NCBI GenBank assembly: GCA_001779315.1
Contig: MFJU01000035.1
Coordinates: 61,255-116,544 of the forward strand
Reading direction: 5' to 3'
DNA length: 55,290 bases
Source: Candidatus Gottesmanbacteria bacterium RIFCSPLOWO2_01_FULL_42_22
Lineage (GTDB): Bacteria; Patescibacteriota; Microgenomatia; 2-02-FULL-39-11
Shown: positions 4,083 to 30,344 of the stretch, piece after piece
Numbering within the stretch: position 1 is the stretch's first letter
Layout: each line of letters opens with the position of its first letter
Notes under the pieces: generated by a model
The model's database searches: none
What the model was told of the DNA's origin: nothing
What the model saw: the letters and a program-made list of their open reading frames with translations, nothing else
Translations under genes and position numbers: made by a program

Positions 4083-5360
4083 TCAGGATTTAATAAAGAA
4101 AAATATTTTACGGTAAGTACGCCTGGCAAAATTGACCGTCAATTTATACGGGATATAGATGATTGAGTTGATGACCGAAGGGTAAAAAATGACCCTCAGT
4201 TTTTTGGGTAGAGGCTCCGGTGACAGATAAAAGATATTGCTGAAACGCTTTCTTCCGGCGCTAATTTGACCAGCCTCGCTTTCCAAAAGGTTTCCCGAAG
4301 TTAATTTTTTTATAAGTCTTAATTTATTACCTAAAGGTTTTATTTTATTAAGAAATCCAACCGGTATTGAAAAGGGATAATATTTTTCGAGAAGTAAAAA
4401 AGAAGGATAGACAAAATTCTCCAAGCGGTATTCCAAAATTTGTTTTAGCAGTCCCTGCCAATCCCCTTTCAGTTTTCGGCAAGCGGAACGCATGAGAGCC
4501 AGGCGGAAATAACCGCTGAAACTGTGATGGAAGAAATGAAGCGCCAGATAGAGGATTTGATGTTCGGCTGACAGCAGGTTAAATTTGATATTTTTATATT
4601 TAAAGATGCTTTTCCTCGCTAAAAACAATTCAGTTAATTTATTTATCTGTTTTTGGGGATAGAGGGCATCGAGGCCTGATATTTGGTTCATCAGAAATGC
4701 CGGTTCGCGGTGGATATCCAAAACAACCGGCCAAAGGGAAGTTTTTTTTATAAAAACAGTTTCCGTCGGCACTTTTTTAAAGAGTTTAAATATCGGGGAA
4801 TATGAAGAATCCACGCTTTGAAAACCTCTCTTCTGAAGGGCAACCGAAGCCGTTTGGTAATCTTTCGGAGAAATGAGGAGATCACAGTCAGCATAAAGCC
4901 GTTGAGGCAGATTTTTCTGCAAAAATAAATAAAGCGGCAGGCCTTTCAGAAATACATAGTCCACTTTTTTCCGGTTAAAAGCTTGGGTTATTTTTGCCAG
5001 CTCTTTCAAATAACTGTCCGCCTGAATCAGGTAGTAATCTTTTACTCTTAGAGACTGTCCTTTTCTGGTAAAATAGGTCAGGCGGGCATGAACATTTTGC
5101 GACGGGATATGGCCGTCTGATTTAAAGTTATGGTCTCCTTTGGTTATTAGATATTTTGTTGATTTATAAATTACCCGGTGGATCATAAATTGCCTCTTTT
5201 TTTCTACCATAATTAATTCGTCTTCCTTAACTTTGTCAAAACGGCTTTTTTTGAGATGGAGGACATCTCCGGGTCTTATTATCGGCAGCATGCTGGTTCC
5301 ATCCGCTTTGAGGGAAAAACGGGACATCTTGACTAATTTTTTAAGAAGTCTGTATTGCAT
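4083..5360 (-). CDS. Fusion of S24/S26 signal-peptidase-like domain with NTP_transf_5 nucleotidyltransferase
   Basis: 425 residues in two parts. Residues 12-100 look like an S26 peptidase of the SipW/archaeal type: GTSMLP with the candidate nucleophile Ser23, RPGDV, IHRVI with His61 where the bacterial type has Lys, and TKGDHN (74-79). No membrane helix is seen. Residues about 115-370 resemble the uncharacterised nucleotidyltransferase family PF14907: VDYVFLKGLPLYLF, then ADCDLLISP with acidic metal-ligand candidates Asp158 and Asp160. In other bacteria such nucleotidyltransferases, S24/S26-like proteins, PqqD and HprK-like kinases occur together in glycan and lasso-peptide loci. It is divergent from the next ligase gene with a 32-bp gap. 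Substrate unknown. Confidence 0.72.
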   Translation of the reverse strand: MQYRLLKKLVKMSRFSLKADGTSMLPIIRPGDVLHLKKSRFDKVKEDELIMVEKKRQFMIHRVIYKSTKYLITKGDHNFKSDGHIPSQNVHARLTYFTRKGQSLRVKDYYLIQADSYLKELAKITQAFNRKKVDYVFLKGLPLYLFLQKNLPQRLYADCDLLISPKDYQTASVALQKRGFQSVDSSYSPIFKLFKKVPTETVFIKKTSLWPVVLDIHREPAFLMNQISGLDALYPQKQINKLTELFLARKSIFKYKNIKFNLLSAEHQILYLALHFFHHSFSGYFRLALMRSACRKLKGDWQGLLKQILEYRLENFVYPSFLLLEKYYPFSIPVGFLNKIKPLGNKLRLIKKLTSGNLLESEAGQISAGRKRFSNIFYLSPEPLPKKLRVIFYPSVINSIIYIPYKLTVNFARRTYRKIFFFIKS

Positions 5361-19875: not shown

Positions 19876-22512
19876 ATGAATTACTCATTCAGCACACGTT
19901 ACCGCCGGATAAGGATCAACCCCCGCTCATCCAAACAATCAAAGTGGATTTACCGGAGCCGGGTCCTGAAAGTCAGACTTCTTAATTTCCTGTTTAGCTA
20001 TATCTGGTATATCCTGGGAGGATCGGTCGTCTTTTTATTGCTTCTGTTTGCCGTTTATTCCAGGGATCTTCCCTCGCCAGAGAAAATCAAAAGGCGTGAA
20101 GGTTTTTCGACGGTGATACTGGACCGCAACCACAAAACTATTTATGACATTTTCACCGACCGGAACACCATTCCCATAAAATTTACAGAAATGCCCGATC
20201 ATTTGAAGAAAGCAACTATCGCCATTGAGGATAAGGATTTTTATAAACATCAGGGTTTCTCGACACGCGGAGTCATCCGCGCCATAATTAATATATTGAC
20301 TTTTAAGGGCCTCCAGGGAGGCTCCACCCTGACCCAGCAGCTGGTCAAAAACGTGCTGTTGACCTCGGAAAGGACTTTGCCCCGGAAATTCAAGGAATTT
20401 ATTCTGGCAGTTGAGATAGAAAGGAAGTATTCCAAGGACGAGATTCTGCAGATGTATCTGAATGAGGCTCCTTACGGCGGGACGATGTGGGGAATTGAGT
20501 CAGCCGCCCAGGGTTATTTCGGCAAAAGTACGCGCGAACTGGATTTATTGGAATCGGTCATTCTGGCCGGATTGCCGCAAAGGCCAAGCTACTATTCGCC
20601 GTTTAATGCCAGTAACGAGGCCTATAAGCAAAGAAGCGAGGAAGTTTTGCGCCGGATGCGGGAGGACGGTTATATTTCTCAAAAAGAGGAAAAGGATTAT
20701 AAAAAGCAGCTTTCCGAATATAAATTCAACAAAAGCAGTCTCTCTTTCAGGGCTCCTCATTTTGTCGAATACGTCAAAAAGCAGCTGATTGACAAATTCG
20801 GCGAGAAAAAAGTCGAACAAGGCGGCTTGAAAGTGGTGACTACTCTCGATTTGGAGCTGCAAAAAAAAGCCGAAGAAATTATTTTTGAAGAGACGGAAAA
20901 AGTTAAGAACTTAAAGGTAGGCAACGGTGCGGCAGTTGTCATAGATCCTGCCACAGGCGACATTTTAGCCTACGTCGGCAGCCGCGAGTATGAATCCGAA
21001 GACAGTCAATTTCAGGGGAAATTTGATGTGGTCAGTATGGGTTTGCGACAGCCCGGCAGTGCTTTAAAACCGATTACCTACGCGGTAGCCTTTGCCAATA
21101 ATTACACTCCGGCCACTTTAATCATGGATGTTGAAACCAAATTTCCGGGAGGAACTAATCTGCCGGATTATATTCCGAAAAACTATGACGGCAAGTTCCG
21201 CGGGCCGGTCCAGCTGCGTTTTGCCTTGGGCAATTCCATCAATCTGCCGGCAGTGAAATTAACGGCTTTGGTAGGTATCAGGAAAATTCTGGAAACAGCA
21301 TATGAATTAGGCCTGTCCACATTGAAACCCACTTCCGAAAATGAAAACCGCCTCGGTCTTTCCATTACTTTGGGAGGCGGGGAAGTGAAATTGTTGGAAC
21401 TGACTTCAGCCTACGGGGTTTTTGCTACAGGCGGTATCAGGTATGAACCGCTTGCCATCCTGAAAGTCACCGATACCAATGATAAAATTCTTTTTGAGCA
21501 TAAAAAAACATCCGGCAAACGGGTTTTGGCTGAGGATGTTTCATTCCTGGTTAATCATATTCTGCTGGATAATATAGCCCGCCAGGAAGTTTTCGGTGAA
21601 AGAAGCTATCTGGTTATCCCCGGAAAGACCGTCTCTGTCAAAACCGGTACCACCGATGATAAAAAAGACAACTGGGCCATCGGCTACACCCCGTATGCCG
21701 TGGCCGGGGTTTGGGTGGGCAATAACGACAATACTCCGATGGATCCTAGATTGGCTTCCGGAGCAACCGGGGCCTCACCCATTTGGAACCGTCTGATGAG
21801 GGAAATCACCGCCGGTCATAAAGATCAAGCTTTTCCCATCCCCGGCAATATCGTTTCCTTAAATATTGACGCTTTCGGCGGTGGTCTCCCTATAGACGGC
21901 CGGCCGGCCAGAAGCGAATATTTTATCAAAGGTACCGAACCGAGCGGACCGTCTCCGATTTACAAAAAACTGAAAATTTCCAAAAACGATTCCGGTAAAC
22001 TGGCAAATCCGCTGGAAATTGCCACCGGCCAATATGAGGAGAAAGACTTTATCGTGTTCGAGGAAAAAGACCCGACGGGCAGTGACCCTAACCGCTGGCA
22101 GGAAGGCATCGATAAGTGGCTGGAAAGCCAATCCGACCCCCAATACCATCCGCCCAAAGATACGGCTGAAGGGGATGAAAATAACGTCATTGTCAATATT
22201 AAAAATCCCCAGGACTGGCAGAGAATCAACAGTAACAATCCTGAAATATCAGCGGAAGCGAAAGCCTTAAGAACGGTAACCAGGCTGGAAATATATGTCG
22301 ATGGTGATATGAAAGCTCAGGAGATTGGTAAGTCAATCAGCAAAAATATTTCAATTGCTGACGGTCTGCATAAAATCAAAATCAAAGCATACACGGAAGG
22401 AAATCACTCGGGAGAGAGGGAGATTACAGTCGGCATCAACCAGGACGCCATTGATCCAACAGTTACCGTTCAGCCTTCAAATACACCGCCGGTCAGTCCG
22501 ACTGTTTCCTAA
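19876..22512 (+). CDS. Class A penicillin-binding protein (peptidoglycan glycosyltransferase/transpeptidase)
   Basis: 878 residues. Cytoplasmic basic tail, one membrane helix (about 38-62), then glycosyltransferase family 51 domain with EDKDFYKHQGFS and GGSTLTQQLVKN. The transpeptidase domain has SxxK in RQPGSALKP, SxN in GNSINLPAVK and KTG in VKTGTTDDKKDNWAIGY. The C-terminal ~170 residues form an extra beta domain and a Thr/Pro tail. It builds and crosslinks peptidoglycan outside the membrane. A decayed copy of its C-terminal end lies at 26024-26412. Only 2 nt separate its stop from the HprK-like gene. Confidence 0.95.
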   Translation: MNYSFSTRYRRIRINPRSSKQSKWIYRSRVLKVRLLNFLFSYIWYILGGSVVFLLLLFAVYSRDLPSPEKIKRREGFSTVILDRNHKTIYDIFTDRNTIPIKFTEMPDHLKKATIAIEDKDFYKHQGFSTRGVIRAIINILTFKGLQGGSTLTQQLVKNVLLTSERTLPRKFKEFILAVEIERKYSKDEILQMYLNEAPYGGTMWGIESAAQGYFGKSTRELDLLESVILAGLPQRPSYYSPFNASNEAYKQRSEEVLRRMREDGYISQKEEKDYKKQLSEYKFNKSSLSFRAPHFVEYVKKQLIDKFGEKKVEQGGLKVVTTLDLELQKKAEEIIFEETEKVKNLKVGNGAAVVIDPATGDILAYVGSREYESEDSQFQGKFDVVSMGLRQPGSALKPITYAVAFANNYTPATLIMDVETKFPGGTNLPDYIPKNYDGKFRGPVQLRFALGNSINLPAVKLTALVGIRKILETAYELGLSTLKPTSENENRLGLSITLGGGEVKLLELTSAYGVFATGGIRYEPLAILKVTDTNDKILFEHKKTSGKRVLAEDVSFLVNHILLDNIARQEVFGERSYLVIPGKTVSVKTGTTDDKKDNWAIGYTPYAVAGVWVGNNDNTPMDPRLASGATGASPIWNRLMREITAGHKDQAFPIPGNIVSLNIDAFGGGLPIDGRPARSEYFIKGTEPSGPSPIYKKLKISKNDSGKLANPLEIATGQYEEKDFIVFEEKDPTGSDPNRWQEGIDKWLESQSDPQYHPPKDTAEGDENNVIVNIKNPQDWQRINSNNPEISAEAKALRTVTRLEIYVDGDMKAQEIGKSISKNISIADGLHKIKIKAYTEGNHSGEREITVGINQDAIDPTVTVQPSNTPPVSPTVS

Positions 22513-22514
22513 AT

Positions 22515-23321
22515 ATGACAAAATCAGATCAGGAATATTATTATTTAACTATAGGCGGATTTATTATTGAAATCTTTTTCTGTCCGCAAAAAGAAGAAGT
22601 CTGTCTAAGTCAGAGGAAAAGACTCATGTCAGAGGTTAAACAGGAGTTTTTACCTTTTTTAACGAAAAAACCGAAAACAGCAGATGCCAGGATAGAATTT
22701 CATTTCCGTATCCCGATTGTTTTTCCGTTTGACAAAAAAAAGAACCGGCTTTTTTTTATAACATATTTTATCGATGAAGGAGACAAAATACTGACTTATT
22801 ATTACCTGAATGCCTTTCAATTTTCCTATCTTTTACTTTATGTGCTTCATAAACTTCTGGTTAGACATCAGGGATTTGTCCTTCATGCATCAGCCTGCCT
22901 GATAAATGACAGGATTGATTTATTTATGGGTCCGTCAGGAGCCGGTAAAACTACTGTACTGAATAACCTTAAAAAATATTATCGGCCTTTCGCCGATGAT
23001 ACGGTAATTGTCAGAAAAAAAGGTTCTGATTTCCGGGTTTACCAGACCCCTTTGAATGAAAGTAACCGGAAAATGATTAAGGCCAGCTCAAAATCATATC
23101 GGCTTGGCAGGATTTTTTTTATTCATAAAGCCAGATCCGACCGGATTGACAAAATTGCGGAAACAGAATCAGTGATAGCAAGATTATCCAATCAATTAAG
23201 GAGTCGTAAGCAGGATAAGAGTCAACAATTTAAAACATTACTCCAGTTGGTAAATAAAAAGATTTTTTTTGAACTATATTTTAAAAAAGTTAGTGCTGAT
23301 TTAGGACAGTTATTGGTTTAA
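22515..23321 (+). CDS. HprK-like P-loop kinase, copy 1 of the peptide module
   Basis: 268 residues. The C-terminal half has the HPr kinase-like core: LHASACLI with His124, P-loop GPSGAGKT (139-146) and FADDTVIV with Asp161/162. It lacks the HprK signature downstream and the N-terminal HprK domain, so it is not a true catabolite-repression kinase. Relatives occur with PqqD proteins in glycan loci and in lasso-peptide clusters, where they phosphorylate the peptide. It starts 2 nt after the PBP stop and ends 10 nt from the convergent precursor gene. Similar in plan to the protein at 26736-27533 but strongly diverged. Confidence 0.8.
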   Translation: MTKSDQEYYYLTIGGFIIEIFFCPQKEEVCLSQRKRLMSEVKQEFLPFLTKKPKTADARIEFHFRIPIVFPFDKKKNRLFFITYFIDEGDKILTYYYLNAFQFSYLLLYVLHKLLVRHQGFVLHASACLINDRIDLFMGPSGAGKTTVLNNLKKYYRPFADDTVIVRKKGSDFRVYQTPLNESNRKMIKASSKSYRLGRIFFIHKARSDRIDKIAETESVIARLSNQLRSRKQDKSQQFKTLLQLVNKKIFFELYFKKVSADLGQLLV

Positions 23322-23331
23322 TCGTAAATAT

Positions 23332-23526
23332 TTAACAGGCACAATACCCAGTTCCCCGACAATTAGCATAACTCTGACCGCAACACGAAGCACATTCTGA
23401 GTCAGAACCGCAGGGAGGTTCACAAGCGGCGTATATTTCGTAAATCATTTCATCGAAAAAACCGAAAAGAAGGGAAATTTTTATTTTTTTAATTTTAATC
23501 CGGGGTTTCTGATATTTATTTTTCAT
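23332..23526 (-). CDS. Cys-rich RiPP-precursor-like peptide, copy 1
   Basis: 64 residues. A basic leader has YQKPRI (5-10) and KIKISLLF (14-21), then an acidic turn. The C-terminal 30 residues are rich in Gly, Ser and Cys, with cysteines at 35, 39, 45, 48, 49, 56, 62 and 64, ending CRGTGYCAC. Compared with the peptide at 27542, the block Y-x-K-P-x-[IL]-x3-K-I-K-[IL]-[SN]-L-[LF] is conserved with identical spacing while the tail differs. A constant leader with a variable Cys-rich end is typical of RiPP precursors. The ATG lies 9 nt after the stop of the membrane protein gene. A small zinc-binding or disulfide-rich secreted peptide is the alternative. Confidence 0.7.
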   Translation of the reverse strand: MKNKYQKPRIKIKKIKISLLFGFFDEMIYEIYAACEPPCGSDSECASCCGQSYANCRGTGYCAC

Positions 23527-23535
23527 TGAGTGTTT

Positions 23536-24075
23536 TTAACGGTCAGAAGCTTCTGTCAGAATTTCAAATTCATCCCCGTCTGACGGCTGATTGACCGGCA
23601 ACGAGATACGGCGTTTCAGTATGACGGATAGCCCGGGTTTCAGCTGATTAATTTCAACCGGAATTTTTTGGCCGGTTTCGTCAAGCCGATATACCCTTTT
23701 TAGAATATCTTCCTTGGATATTTCAGTACCATCAATAGCTTTATTTTGCGCGTTAACTATTTCCATAATCTGAAATCTGCCGTCATCTGATAATGCCGTT
23801 TTTTCACCCAGTTTGCCGGTTAATTGTTCGACCAGATAAAATGACTGACCGTTTTTTATGTCTTTATTCAGGAAATATTGTTTAATATCTCCCAGCATGA
23901 CCTGATTTCCTCCGCTATTGCTTATCTGATTATTTTTGGGAATTATAGTCTTGTTTTTTGCAGCGAGCGGGTTTATGGTATCTAAAAGGGTTGGATTGGT
24001 TATAAATACGTAGTAAATTAGTTCTGAGACTGTAATAAGTAATATTAGCAGAAAGGCAATTTTCAGGATTTTCAT
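23536..24075 (-). CDS. Single-pass membrane-anchored protein of the peptide module, copy 1
   Basis: 179 residues: an N-terminal membrane helix (about 5-27, with SELIYYVFIT), a polar linker, then a soluble beta-rich domain (~65-175) with LKPGLSVILKRR, a G-x-x-V-x-L strand seen also in copy 2 (LKVGDNVQL). Its helix matches that of the protein at 27745 (TIGEIIYYFIIT). It is transcribed before the Cys-rich peptide in the same operon. Role unknown: export, processing or immunity partner of the peptide are all possible. Confidence 0.6.
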   Translation of the reverse strand: MKILKIAFLLILLITVSELIYYVFITNPTLLDTINPLAAKNKTIIPKNNQISNSGGNQVMLGDIKQYFLNKDIKNGQSFYLVEQLTGKLGEKTALSDDGRFQIMEIVNAQNKAIDGTEISKEDILKRVYRLDETGQKIPVEINQLKPGLSVILKRRISLPVNQPSDGDEFEILTEASDR

Positions 24076-24143: not shown

Positions 24144-25600
24144 TGTAGCACCAACATGAAAATGTCCTCTTTCACCAATATAGAAATGTCCGCTTTTAGG
24201 GTTCAAACTTAACTGGTTATTAAATTAACCAATAAGGGAGGAACCCGGATGAAAGGATATTTCACTATGAGCGTTAAAGAGGCAGACAGAATAGCCATCA
24301 TGGACAAGCTAATTGAGAAAAGGATTAAACAGAAACATGCCGCCTTACAGCTGAATTTATCAACAAGGCAAATAAGAAGAGTGATGAAAATATATAAAGA
24401 GGAAGGTAAATTTGGTTTAATCCATAAAAACAGGGGAAGGCAGGGAAACAGGGGTATTACCGGAGCCATAAAAGAAGAAATCATTTCTTTAATCAGCAGG
24501 AAATATCCGGACTTTGGTCCGACTCTGGCCTGTGAGAAGCTGTCTGCACTTCACGGGATATCATATTCGGATGAAACCATAAGGAAAATAATGACAGAGG
24601 GTAACCTCTGGAAAGCCAAAAATAAAAGAGTCAAAGACATTCATCCCTACCGGGAAAGAAGGGCTTGTTTGGGTGAGCTAATTCAGCTTGACGGCTCTCC
24701 GCACTTGTGGTTTGAGGACAGAGGTCCTTCCTGTACCCTTCTGGCGTTTATCGATGATGCCACTTCAAGGATCATGGATGGAATGTTTGTAGACTATGAA
24801 GGCACATTCACTCTTTTTGAGGCAACAGAGCATTATCTCTCTACCCATGGAAAGCCTCTTTCCTTTTATGTCGATAAGCATTCAACCTTCAAGATAAACA
24901 GGCAGGCTGATGTTGAAGAGGATTTAAAAGACACACAGGCACAATCACAATTTTCAAGAGCCATGAATGAGCTTTCAATTGAGGTTATCTTTGCCAATTC
25001 ACCGGAAGCAAAAGGGAGAGTAGAAAAGCTCTTTCAAACACTTCAGGACAGATTGGTTAAAGAAATGAGGCTGAAGGTAATAAAGTCAAAAGAAGAGGGA
25101 ACGAGATTTTTCAGGGAAGTATACATCCCATTCCATAACAGTAAGTTTGCGGTTGTCCCGGCAGAGAAAGCCAATCTGCATAAACCTCTTTTAGCAACTG
25201 ATGATTTAAGCAGAATATTCACAATAAGGTCAAAAAGGATGGTTACAAAGGATCTTGTTGTCAGGTACAAAAACACCAGGTATCAGCTTTTGCCGGCATC
25301 AGGCTCGCGATACACCTTAAGGCATGCTGCGGTAATAGTTGAAGAGAATAGAAAAGGCAAGATTAGTTTTATCTATAAAGATAAAACCATTGCCCACAAG
25401 ATAGCCGTCAAAGAAATTAAGCAGGCAAAACCCGTACAGGTTGCATCTTCAAAGGATTATAAAGAAAATCGTATTACAATCCCTGATTGGGATCATCCCT
25501 GGAGACAAATGGGCAGAGCACAGATAGCATTAAAAAACAGTTTATGAAAAGAGGACATTTCTAAATTGGAAATTAGCGGACATTTCTAAATTGGTTTAAC
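24144..25600 (+). mobile_element. IS1202/ISNCY-like insertion sequence, complete (1457 bp)
   Basis: Bounded by a 16-bp direct repeat. Each end carries two tandem copies of a motif close to CCAATnTAGAAATGTCC followed by G/T-C-T: left at about 24150-24175 and 24173-24200, right (inverted) at about 25550-25572 and 25575-25597. These paired terminal sites are likely transposase-binding repeats. One transposase gene fills the interior. The long target duplication fits the IS1202 group, known for duplications well above 10 bp. It has separated the PqqD gene from its original upstream region. Confidence 0.88.
24249..25547 (+). CDS. DDE transposase (IS1202/ISNCY type)
   Basis: 432 residues. An N-terminal helix-turn-helix region (about 28-60, LNLSTRQIRRVMK) precedes an RNase-H-like DDE core: Asp148 in LIQLDGSPHLWFED, Asp209 in FYVDKHSTF and Glu259 in SPEAKGRVEKLF. 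A beta domain follows (~345-400). The frame is intact, so the element may be active. Unlike most neighbours it has a strong Shine-Dalgarno (AAGGGAGG at 24234-24241, 7 nt from ATG). MSVKEADR at 24267 is a possible later start. Confidence 0.93.
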   Translation: MKGYFTMSVKEADRIAIMDKLIEKRIKQKHAALQLNLSTRQIRRVMKIYKEEGKFGLIHKNRGRQGNRGITGAIKEEIISLISRKYPDFGPTLACEKLSALHGISYSDETIRKIMTEGNLWKAKNKRVKDIHPYRERRACLGELIQLDGSPHLWFEDRGPSCTLLAFIDDATSRIMDGMFVDYEGTFTLFEATEHYLSTHGKPLSFYVDKHSTFKINRQADVEEDLKDTQAQSQFSRAMNELSIEVIFANSPEAKGRVEKLFQTLQDRLVKEMRLKVIKSKEEGTRFFREVYIPFHNSKFAVVPAEKANLHKPLLATDDLSRIFTIRSKRMVTKDLVVRYKNTRYQLLPASGSRYTLRHAAVIVEENRKGKISFIYKDKTIAHKIAVKEIKQAKPVQVASSKDYKENRITIPDWDHPWRQMGRAQIALKNSL

Positions 25601-25616
25601 ATGAATATTATGGTCA
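25601..25616. repeat. Right target-site duplication of the IS element
   Basis: Identical to 24128-24143. It forms the first five codons of the PqqD-like gene. Confidence 0.9.
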
Positions 25617-25903
25617 AAGACAAAATTGATAAGTCAATAGTCACTAAACGGAAATTTCGCCTTAAGCACGGTTTAATCACAGAAAGGATTGAAGGCAGTC
25701 TGACGGTCTTTAACGGGGAGAATTCGGAGATTATTACTTTTAACCGGACGGCCGAGGAAATCTTTAGAAAGATAAAATCCGGCTGGACAGTTATCCAAAT
25801 AGCCCGATATCTTTGCCGGAAGTATAAAGCCAGTGAAGAAATAATGGTGGAGGATATAAGAGAATTAATCCGACCTCTCATTGATAAGAAGATTCTGCTC
25901 TAA
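25601..25903 (+). CDS. PqqD-like RRE protein, copy 1; IS inserted at its start codon
   Basis: 100 residues with the PqqD pattern: FNGENSEIITFNRTAEEIFRKIKSG, TVIQIARYLCRKY, then a C-terminal helix pair ending IDKKILL. PqqD domains (RiPP recognition elements) bind leader peptides and present them to modifying enzymes; PqqD-like proteins also accompany HprK-like kinases in glycan loci. The first 16 bases are the right target duplication, so the ATG and protein are intact but the native promoter lies 1.4 kb away beyond the IS. A second ATG at 25610 could serve. Expression now depends on the IS end, unless it is silent. Confidence 0.8.
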   Translation: MNIMVKDKIDKSIVTKRKFRLKHGLITERIEGSLTVFNGENSEIITFNRTAEEIFRKIKSGWTVIQIARYLCRKYKASEEIMVEDIRELIRPLIDKKILL

Positions 25904-25915
25904 AAATAGCCGATA

Positions 25916-26023
25916 TTATTTGCTATTGAGTTGTAGTCCGTATTTAATTTGAATCAGGTTTTTGCTTTTATTCCTTAAATTCTCAATTTCTTTCTTTTCC
26001 AGATTACGCTCAGGGTGCTGATA
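25916..26023 (-). pseudogene. Remnant of a duplicated pheT 3' end
   Basis: Read on the minus strand this gives QYQHPERNLEKKEIENLRNK and about 16 more residues to a TAA at 25918-25916. It aligns with the PheT C-terminus encoded at 28323-28450 (RYRHPERNLNKNEVEDIRQQ). Only the last ~36 codons remain, with no start. It abuts a PBP remnant of opposite orientation at about 26024, which marks a duplication junction. Confidence 0.85.
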
Positions 26024-26412
26024 CTGGTGGAAATTGCCACCGGCCAGTATGAGGAAAAAGACTTTATCGTGTTCAAGGAAAAAGATCCGACCGGAGGTGA
26101 TACTAACCGCTGGCAGGAAAGCATCGATAAGTGGCCGGAAACACAAAGCGATCCTTTGAATAAATATCCGAAAGACCAGTCTTCATCCAATCAGACGGAA
26201 ATCTCAAGGAAACAAGCGGCGGCAGCTCCATCAATAAAACCATTCAGTTGGACAACGGGGTAAGATTAATAAAAGTCAAAGCGACAGCTTCGGGGGGCAA
26301 AACAGGCGAAGCGGAGATAATAGTGGGCATCAACACCGATCCCAATTTTGTCAGCCCGACTCCCGCACCACCGAGTGCCACGGCAGCTCTTCCCAGTCCA
26401 ACATCGCTCTAG
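26024..26412 (+). pseudogene. Remnant of a duplicated PBP C-terminus
   Basis: EIATGQYEEKDFIVFKEKDP at the left matches the intact PBP (DNA from about 22015) closely. The frame then shifts: from about 26200 a second frame gives LDNGVRLIKVKATASGGKTG and EAEIIVGINTDPN, matching the PBP end SIADGLHKIKIKA...REITVGINQD. About 100-150 bp of the intact gene are missing between the two parts. It ends in a Pro/Ser/Thr tail and TAG at 26410-26412. It lacks all catalytic domains. The following bases (AATATGATAAAAT) still resemble those at the start of the copy-1 HprK-like gene. Confidence 0.88.
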
Positions 26413-26466: not shown

Positions 26467-26739
26467 ATGAACAGAATCATTATTAATAAAGAGCTGGTTA
26501 GCCAGACGATGGGCAAAAAAATTATCATCTTTGACGGTGAAAAATCACTCCTTTTTACCCTTAACGGTACAGGAGCTGTAATTTTTAATAAATTACAGAA
26601 AGGATTAAACACACAGGAAATTAAAAGTTATCTGCAAAAAAAATACGGTTTAACAAAAGTTCAAGCTAAACGGGACGTTGATAATTTTATATCTGTTTTA
26701 CTTAAAAAGAAAATTATCAAAATCAGCAATACTTCATGA
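26467..26739 (+). CDS. PqqD-like RRE protein, copy 2
   Basis: 90 residues: FDGEKSLLFTLNGTGAVIFNKLQKG, then TQEIKSYLQKKYGL and a final helix ending KKKIIKI. This is the PqqD winged-helix pattern with the LNGTGAVIF segment characteristic of the family. It overlaps the HprK-like gene by 4 nt (ATGA), so RRE and kinase are co-translated. No radical SAM gene follows. It is the clean, uninterrupted copy and the likely working partner of the peptide at 27542. Confidence 0.83.
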   Translation: MNRIIINKELVSQTMGKKIIIFDGEKSLLFTLNGTGAVIFNKLQKGLNTQEIKSYLQKKYGLTKVQAKRDVDNFISVLLKKKIIKISNTS

Positions 26740-27533
26740 TAAAGACAGTCAAAACGATTAATCTGAAAATCGCTAATTTTCCCATTAAACTTGTTTTTCA
26801 TCCGACCGACTGGCCGGCTAACCGTGATCATCTCATTCAGGAAGTATTATTTATGCTTTCCGGATTTATGGTCAAAACATCTCCGAAAAAAACCGGAATC
26901 AAAATACATTTTATCGACAGGCTGAATTTGAATATTTTAAGCAATAAAGCCGGCAATAAGAATTTTATTAATTTTTATGAATACCGGAGAAAAAAAAGTT
27001 ATACCTCCTTTTATCATATCGGTATAATACAGCTGAATATCATTATAAGAACAATTCTGCAGAATTTCCTGGCTGACAGCAATGGACTGATCATTCACGG
27101 TTCGGCAGTATTAAACGGTCGTCAGGCCTATATCTTTTTAGGCAGATCGGGCGCCGGAAAATCCACCATCATGAATCTTTTGGCTGATAAATACAAACCG
27201 TTAGCTGATGATACCATTATCATAAAAAAAGAAAATAAACGTTATTACCTCTATCAGACGCCAATGATGGATAAGCAGGCCTGGGTTAAAAAGACCAGCA
27301 GAAAATATGCGGTCGGAAAATTATTTTTTCTGCGCCAAAAAGACAGCTATACCTGCAAAAAAATCAAGAATAAGAATTCAATCACGAAAAAAATGATCAA
27401 GGTTTTCTTTACAAACAAAAACCACAGCAAAAAACAAATGAAATTTCTGCTGGAATTTATCAGCCGTAATGATTTATTTTACGATCTCTATTCAGGTTTA
27501 GACAAAAAGAAAGTCTTTGATTTATTCTCCTGA
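26736..27533 (+). CDS. HprK-like P-loop kinase, copy 2 of the peptide module
   Basis: 265 residues. C-terminal kinase core: IIHGSAVLNG with His121, P-loop GRSGAGKS (136-143), PLADDTIIIKK with Asp158/159 and YLYQTPMMD. Copy 1 has the matching series HASACLIND, GPSGAGKT, FADDTVIV, VYQTPLNE. The N-terminal ~110 residues are family-specific and may bind the substrate. Known relatives phosphorylate lasso peptides or have unknown glycan-linked roles. It ends 8 nt before the convergent precursor gene. Confidence 0.82.
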   Translation: MIKTVKTINLKIANFPIKLVFHPTDWPANRDHLIQEVLFMLSGFMVKTSPKKTGIKIHFIDRLNLNILSNKAGNKNFINFYEYRRKKSYTSFYHIGIIQLNIIIRTILQNFLADSNGLIIHGSAVLNGRQAYIFLGRSGAGKSTIMNLLADKYKPLADDTIIIKKENKRYYLYQTPMMDKQAWVKKTSRKYAVGKLFFLRQKDSYTCKKIKNKNSITKKMIKVFFTNKNHSKKQMKFLLEFISRNDLFYDLYSGLDKKKVFDLFS

Positions 27534-27541
27534 AAAGCCAT

Positions 27542-27742
27542 TTAACAATGGTTACAACTGGGTGGTGGATCAGGACCACATGGGTCACAATAACTTGCGG
27601 CATTGACCGTACCGATAAATAAGTCTTCATTGGGTAGATATTCAAACGGGTAAGAAAAGAGGTTTAATTTGATTTTGGAAACAGCTAATTCCGGCTTGCG
27701 GTAATTTCTGGACAATTTTTTAGATCTGCGGACTTTATTCAC
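27542..27742 (-). CDS. Cys-containing RiPP-precursor-like peptide, copy 2
   Basis: 66 residues starting with GTG 27742, 2 nt after the upstream stop. The basic leader contains YRKPEL (14-19), an exact YxxPxL match, and KIKLNLF (23-29); then YPFEYLPNEDLFIGTVNAAS. The last 15 residues hold four cysteines (52, 55, 63, 66) among Pro, Asp and Gly and end CNHC. YxxPxL is the lasso-leader motif bound by PqqD-like RRE proteins. The tail lacks the Gly1 plus acidic residue 7-9 layout of classic lasso cores, so another modification is likelier. It could be a metal-binding peptide instead. Confidence 0.7.
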   Translation of the reverse strand: MNKVRRSKKLSRNYRKPELAVSKIKLNLFSYPFEYLPNEDLFIGTVNAASYCDPCGPDPPPSCNHC

Positions 27743-27744
27743 AA

Positions 27745-28257
27745 TTATTCAATTTTATAAATTTCATAACTTTCGGCCTGTTGGGGATCAAGCGGAGAGA
27801 AATAAGGATTGTAAGTTTCATTTAACTGCACGTTGTCCCCGACTTTTAATTCGCCGGTCTTTATTGGCTTTAGGTTATCACCTGATTTTGAAAATACTTT
27901 GACTTTTTTATAGAGATAGTCGGGAAAAAGCATCCAAAATTCTCTGCCGTTGGACGTAATAAGCTCCATGGCAAACGGGTAAAAAGAACCTCCGGATTCC
28001 CTGCCGTCATAAGCGATGTCCTTGATTTTGGTTTGAAACTCCGTTTTAACGGTTATTTTGCTATTTGGATCGTAGGCATATTTAGCGAACATCGACAGAG
28101 TATCCGGGTGGATAGCTGGAGTTACCGATATGCTTGGAGTTAAATTACTTTTACCAAGCGGAAACTTAATCTGCTTGGTGATTATAAAGTAATAAATAAT
28201 TTCACCGATGGTCAGTACCAGCAGGAGTGCAAAAATTGCTTTTAAAAGTTTATGCAT
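27745..28257 (-). CDS. Single-pass membrane-anchored protein of the peptide module, copy 2
   Basis: 170 residues: membrane helix at about 7-27 (LLLVLTIGEIIYYFIIT), a Ser/Thr/Pro linker, then a beta-rich extracytoplasmic domain with TGELKVGDNVQLNETYNPY near the end. It is first in a two-gene minus-strand operon with the precursor 2 nt behind, as in copy 1. The two membrane proteins share helix and domain plan but little sequence. The constant pairing with a Cys-rich peptide suggests a joint function. Confidence 0.62.
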   Translation of the reverse strand: MHKLLKAIFALLLVLTIGEIIYYFIITKQIKFPLGKSNLTPSISVTPAIHPDTLSMFAKYAYDPNSKITVKTEFQTKIKDIAYDGRESGGSFYPFAMELITSNGREFWMLFPDYLYKKVKVFSKSGDNLKPIKTGELKVGDNVQLNETYNPYFSPLDPQQAESYEIYKIE

Positions 28258-28322: not shown

Positions 28323-30344
28323 TTAATCAACCGGCTTTTTATGTTTCCTTCCGCTTTTGAGATTATTTTTTGTAGCGATCAGATCCTCTATTTGCTGCCG
28401 TATGTCTTCAACTTCATTTTTATTCAGATTGCGCTCGGGGTGTCGGTAACGGATTTCCAGATTAATGCTGTCAGTATATTTATCAGTCAGACGGACACGG
28501 TTGATGAGTTTATTCAGGTCTTTTATGTCATCAATCAGAGAACCGACTGAAGTTTCCTTAGTGATTAGTATGGAAAAGTTTTCAATGACTTCAGGCGTTG
28601 AGATAATCTTTTGAAAAATCTTGGCATCACTTGCGAATTTCAATAAAACTTCAATATCCAATTGGGCCAGACTTAGGCTTTCTTTTAATACGAACGAAGA
28701 TTTAAGGTCAGGATGTATTTCGCCGGCATACGCAAGTATTTCTCTATCCATCATGTAAGTTAAAGATTTGCCCGGATGCCAAAATTCTGGGGCTCCGCTT
28801 TTAATTTTCCAATCCCTTATCTCCAGTTCCCGCAGGATCCCTTCGACTGTTCCTTTGTGCTTATAAAAGTCGTTATTTTCGGTAATCACCAGATATTCCG
28901 GCTCATCCGGTAAATCATAATCTTTTTTTAAATAAACCGCCGAAAACTCAAAAAGCTTCAATTTTTCCTTCAAAGCCTGGTTATTGGCAAAAACTTCAAG
29001 AAGCGAGGGTACCAGTGAAGTCCTCATATAGGCAAAATCATTTGTTAGCGGATTAGCCAGTTTAAGATGTGTTGAAGTGCTAAGTTTGGCTTTGGCAATC
29101 AGTTCTTCGGAAACAAAAGAATAGCTGTATGTTTCGGTATAGCCCCAGTATTTGAGCATTTTCTTTATCTGGTTTTTCCTGATGAAGTTTGTGTGGCTGC
29201 CCAAGACCGGAATTTTCCCCTCCATAAGATATGACGGTAAATTATGATAACCGTAAATCCTGGCCACTTCCTCGACAATATCTTCTTCTAGGGAAATATC
29301 CTGCCGGCGGTAGGCAGGCGGGACAACAGTCAATATATTTTTTTCTCTTTCATTAACTTTAAAATTTAAGGAAGATAGGATTTCGATTATTTCTTTTGCT
29401 GAAAGCTTTTTGCCAAGCCTGTCGTTGATGAATTCCGCAGTGACGGATATTGAAATTTCCTGCGGTTTTTCAGGAAAGAGATCGATGATCTGGCCGGCCG
29501 GTTCTGCGCCTGTCAGCTGCCGCATCAAGCCGATTCCCCTTTCCAAAGCTATCCGGGCTAACTCGGGATCAGGTGATTTCTCATTGATGGTTGCAGCCAT
29601 CGTCCTGATGCCGTATTTAAGCGATGATTTTCTGATGCGGACCGGATCATTGGACTCGATAAAAAGGATTATCCGTTTAGTTTTTTCGCTAACCACGCTG
29701 TTTTTGGTGCCCATAATTCCCGGTAAATCGATGACTCTGCCGGTTCCGTCATCGATAATGACGTCGTTTTCGCAAAGCCGGAATTTCTTTCCGTCCAAAG
29801 TGACAATCAGTTCATCTTTTCTGGCGGTTCTAATCAGAAAGCGGTTTGTTTTAATCCGGTCATAATCAAATACATGGACCGGATGGCCCAATTCGCACAT
29901 GACGTAATTGGTGACATCGACCGCATTATTCAAACTGCGAATACCCGAGGATTCCAATCGTTTCTTGATATAATCCGGAGATTGGTCAAGGGTAACGTTA
30001 TCTAAGACTATGCCCAATATCCGGCGGCAAAGCTTCCGCGGATCGCTGATATCCAGAGGTAATACTTTTAGCGGCGTCAATTTTTCTGGCAAGGGCAGCG
30101 GTTTTAATATAGCGGAAAATCCGAAACGGGGCAGAATTGCCGCCGCTTCCCTGGCGATACCGTAAACCGAAGCCATGTCGATCCGATTGGTTGTTATTTC
30201 AATCTCATAAACAGATTCAGCGGCCAGTGAATTTATTTTTTCAATTGAAGGGCCGCAGAGCGACAGACAGCCTTTGATATCTTCGGGTGTAGCGTCCGTT
30301 TCCAAATATTCCCTCAGCCAGGAATCGGGAACTAAAATATTCAT
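28323..30344 (-). CDS. pheT: Phenylalanyl-tRNA synthetase beta subunit, short form
   Basis: 673 residues against ~800 in E. coli. The sequence passes from the first ~40 residues (MNILVPDSWLREYLE...) directly to YEIEITTNRIDMASVYGIAREAAAIL, so the EMAP/YtpR tRNA-binding insertion is absent. B3/B4 follows (CRRILGIVLDNV...; NAVDVTNYVMCELGHPVHVFD), then the B5 domain and the catalytic-like core (YRRQDISLEEDIVEEVARIYGY), and a C-terminal FDX-ACB domain ending in HPERNLNKNEVEDI. PheT pairs with PheS as a heterotetramer. Start shares one base with the pheS stop. Confidence 0.95.
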   Translation of the reverse strand: MNILVPDSWLREYLETDATPEDIKGCLSLCGPSIEKINSLAAESVYEIEITTNRIDMASVYGIAREAAAILPRFGFSAILKPLPLPEKLTPLKVLPLDISDPRKLCRRILGIVLDNVTLDQSPDYIKKRLESSGIRSLNNAVDVTNYVMCELGHPVHVFDYDRIKTNRFLIRTARKDELIVTLDGKKFRLCENDVIIDDGTGRVIDLPGIMGTKNSVVSEKTKRIILFIESNDPVRIRKSSLKYGIRTMAATINEKSPDPELARIALERGIGLMRQLTGAEPAGQIIDLFPEKPQEISISVTAEFINDRLGKKLSAKEIIEILSSLNFKVNEREKNILTVVPPAYRRQDISLEEDIVEEVARIYGYHNLPSYLMEGKIPVLGSHTNFIRKNQIKKMLKYWGYTETYSYSFVSEELIAKAKLSTSTHLKLANPLTNDFAYMRTSLVPSLLEVFANNQALKEKLKLFEFSAVYLKKDYDLPDEPEYLVITENNDFYKHKGTVEGILRELEIRDWKIKSGAPEFWHPGKSLTYMMDREILAYAGEIHPDLKSSFVLKESLSLAQLDIEVLLKFASDAKIFQKIISTPEVIENFSILITKETSVGSLIDDIKDLNKLINRVRLTDKYTDSINLEIRYRHPERNLNKNEVEDIRQQIEDLIATKNNLKSGRKHKKPVD

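Follow-up and report, generated by a model that had tools for sequence, protein, structure and literature searches.

Two cassette copies in a Candidatus Gottesmanbacteria genome appear to produce, tag and trim short peptides whose cysteines are probably paired

Candidatus Gottesmanbacteria bacterium RIFCSPLOWO2_01_FULL_42_22 carries, in the stretch of DNA analysed here as a whole (the window, 55,290 nucleotides of contig MFJU01000035.1), two copies of a gene cassette that seems to serve in producing, tagging and trimming short peptides, the cysteines of which are probably paired. The main finding is precursor 1, a 64-residue protein encoded at 23332-23526 of the minus strand. In the reading favoured here, to which we give a probability of roughly 0.6 for the full mechanism including kinase, peptidase and four disulfides, precursor 1 gives rise to a small secreted or surface peptide of a PqqD-guided (RRE-dependent) cassette. 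CPR bacteria, gene-poor and episymbiotic, are assumed to influence the cells around them through effector molecules that are mostly unknown, and the analysis supplies a named and testable set of genes and peptides, namely two precursors in this genome and 55 candidates among the sampled loci.

Two neighbouring cassettes and the precursor gene

The features of the window on which the argument rests are the following.

4083..5360, minus strand: signal-peptidase/S24-like domain fused to an NTP_transf_5 nucleotidyltransferase; candidate leader peptidase, 18 kb off
22515..23321, plus strand: predicted HprK-fold kinase 1, convergent with precursor 1
23332..23526, minus strand: precursor 1, leader residues 1-34 and Cys-rich core 35-64 (eight Cys)
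23335..23424, minus strand: predicted core, residues 35-64, if the cut falls after Ala34 (Ala33 is possible too); inferred from a [LVI]-x-A motif
23503..23514, minus strand: YxxP motif, YQKP, residues 5-8, read from the sequence
23536..24075, minus strand: MP1, 179 aa, N-terminally membrane-anchored, directly upstream of precursor 1 with a 9-bp gap
24249..25547, plus strand: insertion element gene within cassette 1, transposase-like with HTH domains ("transposase" is inferred)
25601..25903, plus strand: PqqD/RRE protein 1, by Pfam match
25931..26026, minus strand: fragment of the PheT 3' end, a duplicated flank (tblastn, 47% over 32 aa)
26027..26373, plus strand: fragment of a penicillin-binding-protein 3' end, a duplicated flank (87% over 127 bp; 66% over 59 aa)
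26467..26739, plus strand: PqqD/RRE protein 2, by Pfam match
26736..27533, plus strand: predicted HprK-fold kinase 2
27542..27742, minus strand: precursor 2, 66 aa, GTG start, leader of the precursor 1 type, core with 4 Cys
27745..28257, minus strand: MP2, 170 aa, membrane-anchored, directly upstream of precursor 2

The translation of precursor 1 is MKNKYQKPRIKIKKIKISLLFGFFDEMIYEIYAACEPPCGSDSECASCCGQSYANCRGTGYCAC. A reading of the letters alone had proposed a 64-residue frame with eight C-terminal cysteines, and this is matched exactly on the minus strand, with cysteines at positions 35, 39, 45, 48, 49, 56, 62 and 64 as claimed. The same reading described the first 30 residues as basic and free of cysteine; the absence of cysteine holds for residues 1-34, but the basic character holds only for the Lys-rich residues 1-18, since residues 19-34 are hydrophobic and partly acidic. 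Among window frames of at least 50 codons, precursor 1 is the sole one with at least eight cysteines in its last 30 residues. That so short a frame without a family match (none in Pfam or NCBIfam at E<=1) arose by chance can hardly be maintained: no frame with a comparable eight-Cys tail appeared in 60 dinucleotide-preserving shuffles of the whole window, leader and neighbours are conserved, and the idea is refuted by the paralog and by conservation in related peptides, where cysteines stay in register. When the 18-residue leader profile was run against the whole genome, precursors 1 and 2 were the only matches at E<0.5 (6.7e-6 and 7.5e-6, the next match being at 0.63). Precursor 1 is thus very probably a real gene, as judged from its start 9 bp past the stop of MP1, its paralog at 27542-27742 and the six cysteines that related peptides keep.

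Both cassettes lie in a genome of 1.42 Mb (93.3% complete) between a penicillin-binding protein gene (19876-22512) and pheT (28323-30344), both named by eye. The order in cassette 1 is kinase (+), precursor 1 (-), MP1 (-), insertion element (+) and PqqD 1 (+), and in cassette 2 PqqD 2 (+), kinase 2 (+), precursor 2 (-) and MP2 (-); precursor 2, about 4 kb from precursor 1, has the same leader. The penicillin-binding-protein fragment retains 87% identity to its parent over 127 bp, against only 28% between kinases 1 and 2. From this it can be inferred that recombination probably placed a divergent cassette, together with its flanks, beside the resident one. A scan for promoters and terminators returned promoters at chance level, and no exporter gene was seen inside the cassette.

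Two observations concern the layout of this region. The insertion element (24249-25547) splits PqqD 1 from kinase 1 and precursor 1, and the gap between pheT and the penicillin-binding protein gene, with its fragments at 25931-26373, has the look of a site where peptide cassettes are exchanged. Between seemingly the same two genes, a genome of the same genus (L039) has a different cassette with an S74-fused precursor.

Class-wide recurrence, the leader and the pairing of core cysteines

The HprK-fold kinase is present in 23 of 110 relatives, in 40 of 373 genomes of the class, in 9 of the 15 genomes of the bacterium's own order, and in 7 of 379 genomes of a phylum sample, all seven within the same class. 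Altogether 57 HprK loci were read, some genomes contributing more than one; a precursor candidate is found at 49 of them (the other eight have none), PqqD at 39, a gene matching the S26/NTase profile at 40, the membrane protein at 40, YcaO at 13, YcaO together with a SagB-type dehydrogenase near the same type of leader at 11, and radical SAM at 9. Duplicate loci were dropped (L064, L066, L068, L069 and L071, contigs of L038, L042, L045, L153 and L051), as were Cys-less leader-like frames (L156, L063) and matches without a Y/W..P leader, while weak Cys-less candidates were kept by eye (e.g., L146, L148, L060-L062) and stand outside the parity counts below. What is established is that the genes exist, that the leader is conserved and that they occur together: the recurring parts are leader, PqqD, kinase, membrane protein and peptidase, and the cores and tailoring enzymes vary (none, YcaO plus SagB, or radical SAM). 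At L042, for instance, the enzymes are a SagD-type YcaO (3.5e-54, below the cut-off of that model, the Pfam YcaO match being above its own) and SagB (2.4e-42). Precursors start at most 60 bp from the stop of the membrane-protein gene in 32 of 55 cases, and the two genes therefore form a tight pair.

Across related loci the leader follows the consensus KYxKPxIxxKKIKxxLFx. The invariance of its Tyr and Pro results in part from selection, as the seeds were picked by a Y..P pattern and L054, with Y..S, does not enter the alignment of leaders (A5). At E<=0.01 the leader profile matched 31 of 373 genomes, many matches being its own training rows; beyond these, in a list judged by eye, 10 of 23 matches fall at HprK loci and the other 13 elsewhere. 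According to the available part of PMC12710340, YxxP is the motif by which lasso leaders are recognized in the RRE cleft. Comparing leader and tail among homologs, as the sequence-only reading had recommended, gives a conserved leader and a variable core. At the level of alignments this is one of the features expected of RRE-dependent RiPP precursors; a second, a PqqD-like RRE encoded together with the precursor, is likewise present. A motif of [LVIM], a hydrophobic residue or Asn, and Ala precedes the core in 32 of 46 peptides (2000 shuffles gave 5.2 on average and 14 at most); the strict pattern is absent from the remaining 14, several of which have a near form (YLA, QLA). A cut before the Cys-rich core is thus statistically supported, and the cutting itself is an inference.

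Further support comes from the number of cysteines. In the 29 peptides with at least two core cysteines, the leaders have 2 Cys in 522 residues, compared with 164 in 1026 in the downstream parts. An even core count is seen in 19 of 20 peptides whose locus has neither YcaO nor radical SAM, against 7 of 16 at loci with such an enzyme (Fisher P 0.0017); the latter include the L043 precursor, which has no usual start codon in frame and without which the figures are 6 of 15 and P 0.0006. These P values are too optimistic since the peptides are related and not independent. The parity idea was moreover drawn from the first loci, those fetched later being even in 4 of 4 cases, and "enzyme-free" means that no such enzyme lies within the fetched stretch (about 8 kb per side or to the contig end), except that the bacterium's own genome was searched whole. 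The sole odd enzyme-free case is a one-Cys core (L058), and within the bacterium's own family all 16 counts are even, including that of L059, a radical SAM locus. The closest relatives of precursor 1, L047 and L049 of one genome, keep Cys 35, 39, 45, 48, 56 and 62 in register, and both lack Cys49 and Cys64 together, the pattern that the gain or loss of a whole disulfide would leave. In the core of precursor 1, a Cys49-Cys64 disulfide is therefore probable on alignment evidence. Paired cysteines are statistically supported and disulfides inferred, and the parity, the hydrophobic-x-Ala site, the YxxP leader and the neighbouring PqqD and HprK-fold kinase genes all favour the earlier suggestion that the frame encodes a precursor, divided into leader and core, of a peptide that is modified or has several disulfides.

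Even numbers would equally fit metal sites, and a metal-binding mini-protein of the metallothionein or zinc-binding type has to be considered, with eight cysteines in a 30-residue core and even counts that suit two or four thiolates per metal. However, the spacing of the cysteines differs between peptides while the leader is constant, and such a protein would need neither an RRE-type leader nor an adjoining kinase and PqqD, which makes this alternative improbable. A zinc-binding or ferredoxin family had been named beforehand as the outcome that would overturn the precursor reading; the Cys tail has no match at E<=1 in Pfam or NCBIfam, so that this refuting condition is absent and a zinc-ribbon or ferredoxin assignment is rejected.

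The loci with YcaO and SagB or with radical SAM raise the question of whether the window has an azole (YcaO/SagB) or radical-SAM system that is incomplete or acts in trans, the enzyme that would turn the core, rich in Cys, Ser and Gly, into azoles or thioethers being encoded elsewhere or missing from the assembly. Azole clusters have been published from CPR genomes, 31 Microgenomates included (PMC7298704, seen in part), that is, from the same bacterial group, and relatives of the cassette have YcaO and nitroreductase near the same leader type as in the window. Nevertheless, the genome of the window, at its 93.3% completeness, contains neither YcaO (PF02624) nor any nitroreductase family member, its only two radical SAM genes are on other contigs with none beside a precursor, and core counts are even at enzyme-free loci whereas odd ones are common at enzyme-bearing loci, so that this explanation is unlikely. 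HprK, PqqD and Hint/S74 fusions are not mentioned in the accessible part of PMC7298704.

Cassette proteins and the proposed maturation

Under the preferred reading of precursor 1 as the substrate of a PqqD-guided cassette, PqqD would bind the YxxP leader and present the precursor to the HprK-fold kinase. Both PqqD proteins pass the Pfam PF05402 cut-off (42.3 and 34 bits against 23.4), and these two window genes are the only PF05402 members in the genome. In the portion of PMC5067487 at hand, PadeB1 has nanomolar affinity for its own leader, which it presents to the protease.

The kinase would then phosphorylate the core, or modify it otherwise with ATP. Its structure model (pLDDT 88.7) finds PEPCK (3.5e-8) and HPr kinase 1ko7 (3.8e-6) as best PDB matches, and the His, P-loop and Asp-Asp residues characteristic of HprK/PEPCK-fold kinases are kept; by the criteria of modelled fold and residues, the window kinase belongs to the HprK/PEPCK fold. 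In a profile search of PDB sequences the top matches were ABC ATPases, by the P-loop alone, with HPr kinase at 0.00097. Judged by the kinase (59% identity), Ca. Gottesmanbacteria GW2011_GWA2_43_14 is the nearest relative with a name. The chemistry of kinase and nucleotidyltransferase is inferred by analogy with the corresponding lasso-peptide enzymes: HprK-type lasso kinases phosphorylate a C-terminal Ser, and the lasso nucleotidyltransferase, which is sometimes fused to the B2 protease, adds a hexose to the phosphate (PMC8498205, as far as its text was available). An objection to the kinase step is that the core of the window peptide ends in Cys and not in the Ser used by known lasso kinases, a Ser that the Elusimicrobia relatives do have, and since the window peptides end in Cys the kinase target there is left open. 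Also left open is dehydration by the kinase followed by thioether formation, a possibility for which no lyase was noticed.

The fusion protein encoded at 4083-5360, in which a signal-peptidase/S24-like domain is joined to a PF14907 nucleotidyltransferase, would cut the leader off after -Tyr-Ala-Ala, and its nucleotidyltransferase part may put a sugar or nucleotide onto the phosphate. Freed of its leader, the core of about 30 residues would finally fold, its eight cysteines forming four disulfides. Leader removal by the S26 protein, secretion and core modification are all inferred, without expression or mass data, and against the peptidase step it must be said that the candidate gene lies 18 kb away, outside the cassette, its role being inferred. 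At related loci, 12 proteins of fewer than 200 aa match the S26/NTase profile (one is cut by a contig end), and the peptidase part thus also exists alone. Because the nucleotidyltransferase gene sits amid apparent glycosyltransferase and polysaccharide genes, named by eye, a phosphate link to a surface glycan is conceivable, but no more. The membrane protein (model mean pLDDT 73.8) has no PDB fold match at E<=0.001 and only a weak likeness to an OB-fold; an immunity role was considered and is left open.

The closest known systems are lasso clusters with kinase and nucleotidyltransferase, such as those of paeninodin and pseudomycoidin, which share with the window the YxxP leader, a PqqD-like RRE, the HprK-type kinase and a nucleotidyltransferase that, in the part of the literature available, can be fused to a protease as in the window genome. 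Usual lasso cores are not Cys-rich. A lasso peptide with a diverged maturation set could draw on these shared parts, on the nearness of the window PqqD to the lasso B1 model (NF033530, 3.3e-9, below its cut-off) and on an asparagine-synthetase-like gene at the window start. This gene, however, is a much closer match to the XrtA amidotransferase (7e-35, compared with 4e-8) and sits about 22 kb off in a polysaccharide gene group, while the B2-type transglutaminase-like protease (PF13471) is absent from the genome and the core is Cys-rich, with eight cysteines and a Cys end in place of Ser. With no B2 protease in the genome, no lasso cyclase in the cluster and a candidate protease of the signal-peptidase/S24 type, a lasso peptide was rejected as very unlikely.

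The second relative is SynChlorMet (ScmC, HprK-related; ScmD, PqqD-related; ScmE, radical SAM; NCBIfam TIGR04248-04250), with which the window shares the pair of a PqqD and an HprK-related protein. ScmC is the best named model for both HprK-like proteins (7e-7 and 1.6e-6), but all matches remain far below the curated cut-offs (28.8 and 27.7 bits against 125 for ScmC, 17.5 against 100 for ScmD), the window has no radical SAM partner, and peptide and peptidase differ; the content of this cassette beyond the three models is taken as general background. As the defining enzymes of lasso peptides, azoles and sactipeptides are absent from the genome or not beside the precursor, the cassette is filed as a variant of RRE-guided peptide systems and as none of these three.

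Self-processing tails and relatives beyond the window

Nine precursors at related loci end in a C-terminal self-processing domain, which the window precursors do not have.

L039:9837-10331, L048:9796-10269, L054:6394-6951 and L163:2431-2874: four precursors with a YxxP-type leader fused to Peptidase_S74, a chaperone domain
L157:8067-8624, L158:4892-5446, L162:3459-4037, L165:7866-8450 and L168:2014-2628: five precursors with a YxxP leader fused to a Hint-type (intein/hedgehog) domain

L157, L158, L162 and L165 were assigned by Pfam PT-HINT and L168 by eye only, without a Pfam match. Peptidase_S74 cleaves itself, and Hint domains form thioesters at their first Cys. The Hint domain directly follows a short Cys-bearing core, and four of the five Hint precursors are near YcaO and SagB; cores ahead of the tail have four Cys in L039 and six each in L054 and L165. 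That these tails follow Cys cores suggests that the C-terminal end of the peptide is important and deliberately produced, and precursors ending in Hint or S74 would represent a new way of finishing it.

A broader proposal, offered only tentatively, is that of a Microgenomates-wide chassis consisting of an RRE-read YxxP leader, an HprK-fold kinase, a protease-nucleotidyltransferase fusion and a membrane partner, into which different chemistries are plugged: plain disulfides in the window, azoles or radical crosslinks elsewhere, and in some species C-terminal release or conjugation by S74 or Hint, with kinase and nucleotidyltransferase linking the peptide through phosphate to a surface glycan. 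If so, the thioester formed by Hint could couple the peptide to a sugar, a lipid or itself. Were chemistries exchanged while the leader stays the same, co-expression could directly test both the specificity of the RRE and the function of the kinase. Graspetides have been reported in CPR bacteria in the available text of PMC8939145, and the accessible parts of PMC7470986 and PMC7143001 hold nothing on an HprK-PqqD peptide cassette. Within one open-access full-text library, no paper was found that deals with HprK-PqqD cassettes of these bacteria lacking both lasso and radical enzymes, with precursors tailed by Hint or S74, or with SynChlorMet.

Two loci of the survey deserve mention for their composition. 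At L063:3682-6931, in a genome of the same family, two radical SAM genes and a QueC-like gene adjoin the HprK-PqqD pair, and L069/L153 is one locus with two precursors (eight and two Cys), two kinases, two membrane-protein genes, YcaO and SagB.

Beyond Microgenomates, 72 further kinase loci have PqqD in 62 cases, radical SAM in 43 and an S26-profile gene in 39. Elusimicrobia (L072-L126) contain a clean operon of HprK, PqqD, peptide, S26 and radical SAM genes (e.g., L115:7719-10240); two of 17 peptides with an ETAALACGKC stretch were scanned and gave no NCBIfam match. These operons resemble the window in joining a YxKP leader, HprK, PqqD and a signal-peptidase-like gene, and differ from it in that radical SAM is present and the core is short and ends in Ser, as it does in all 17 of these peptides.
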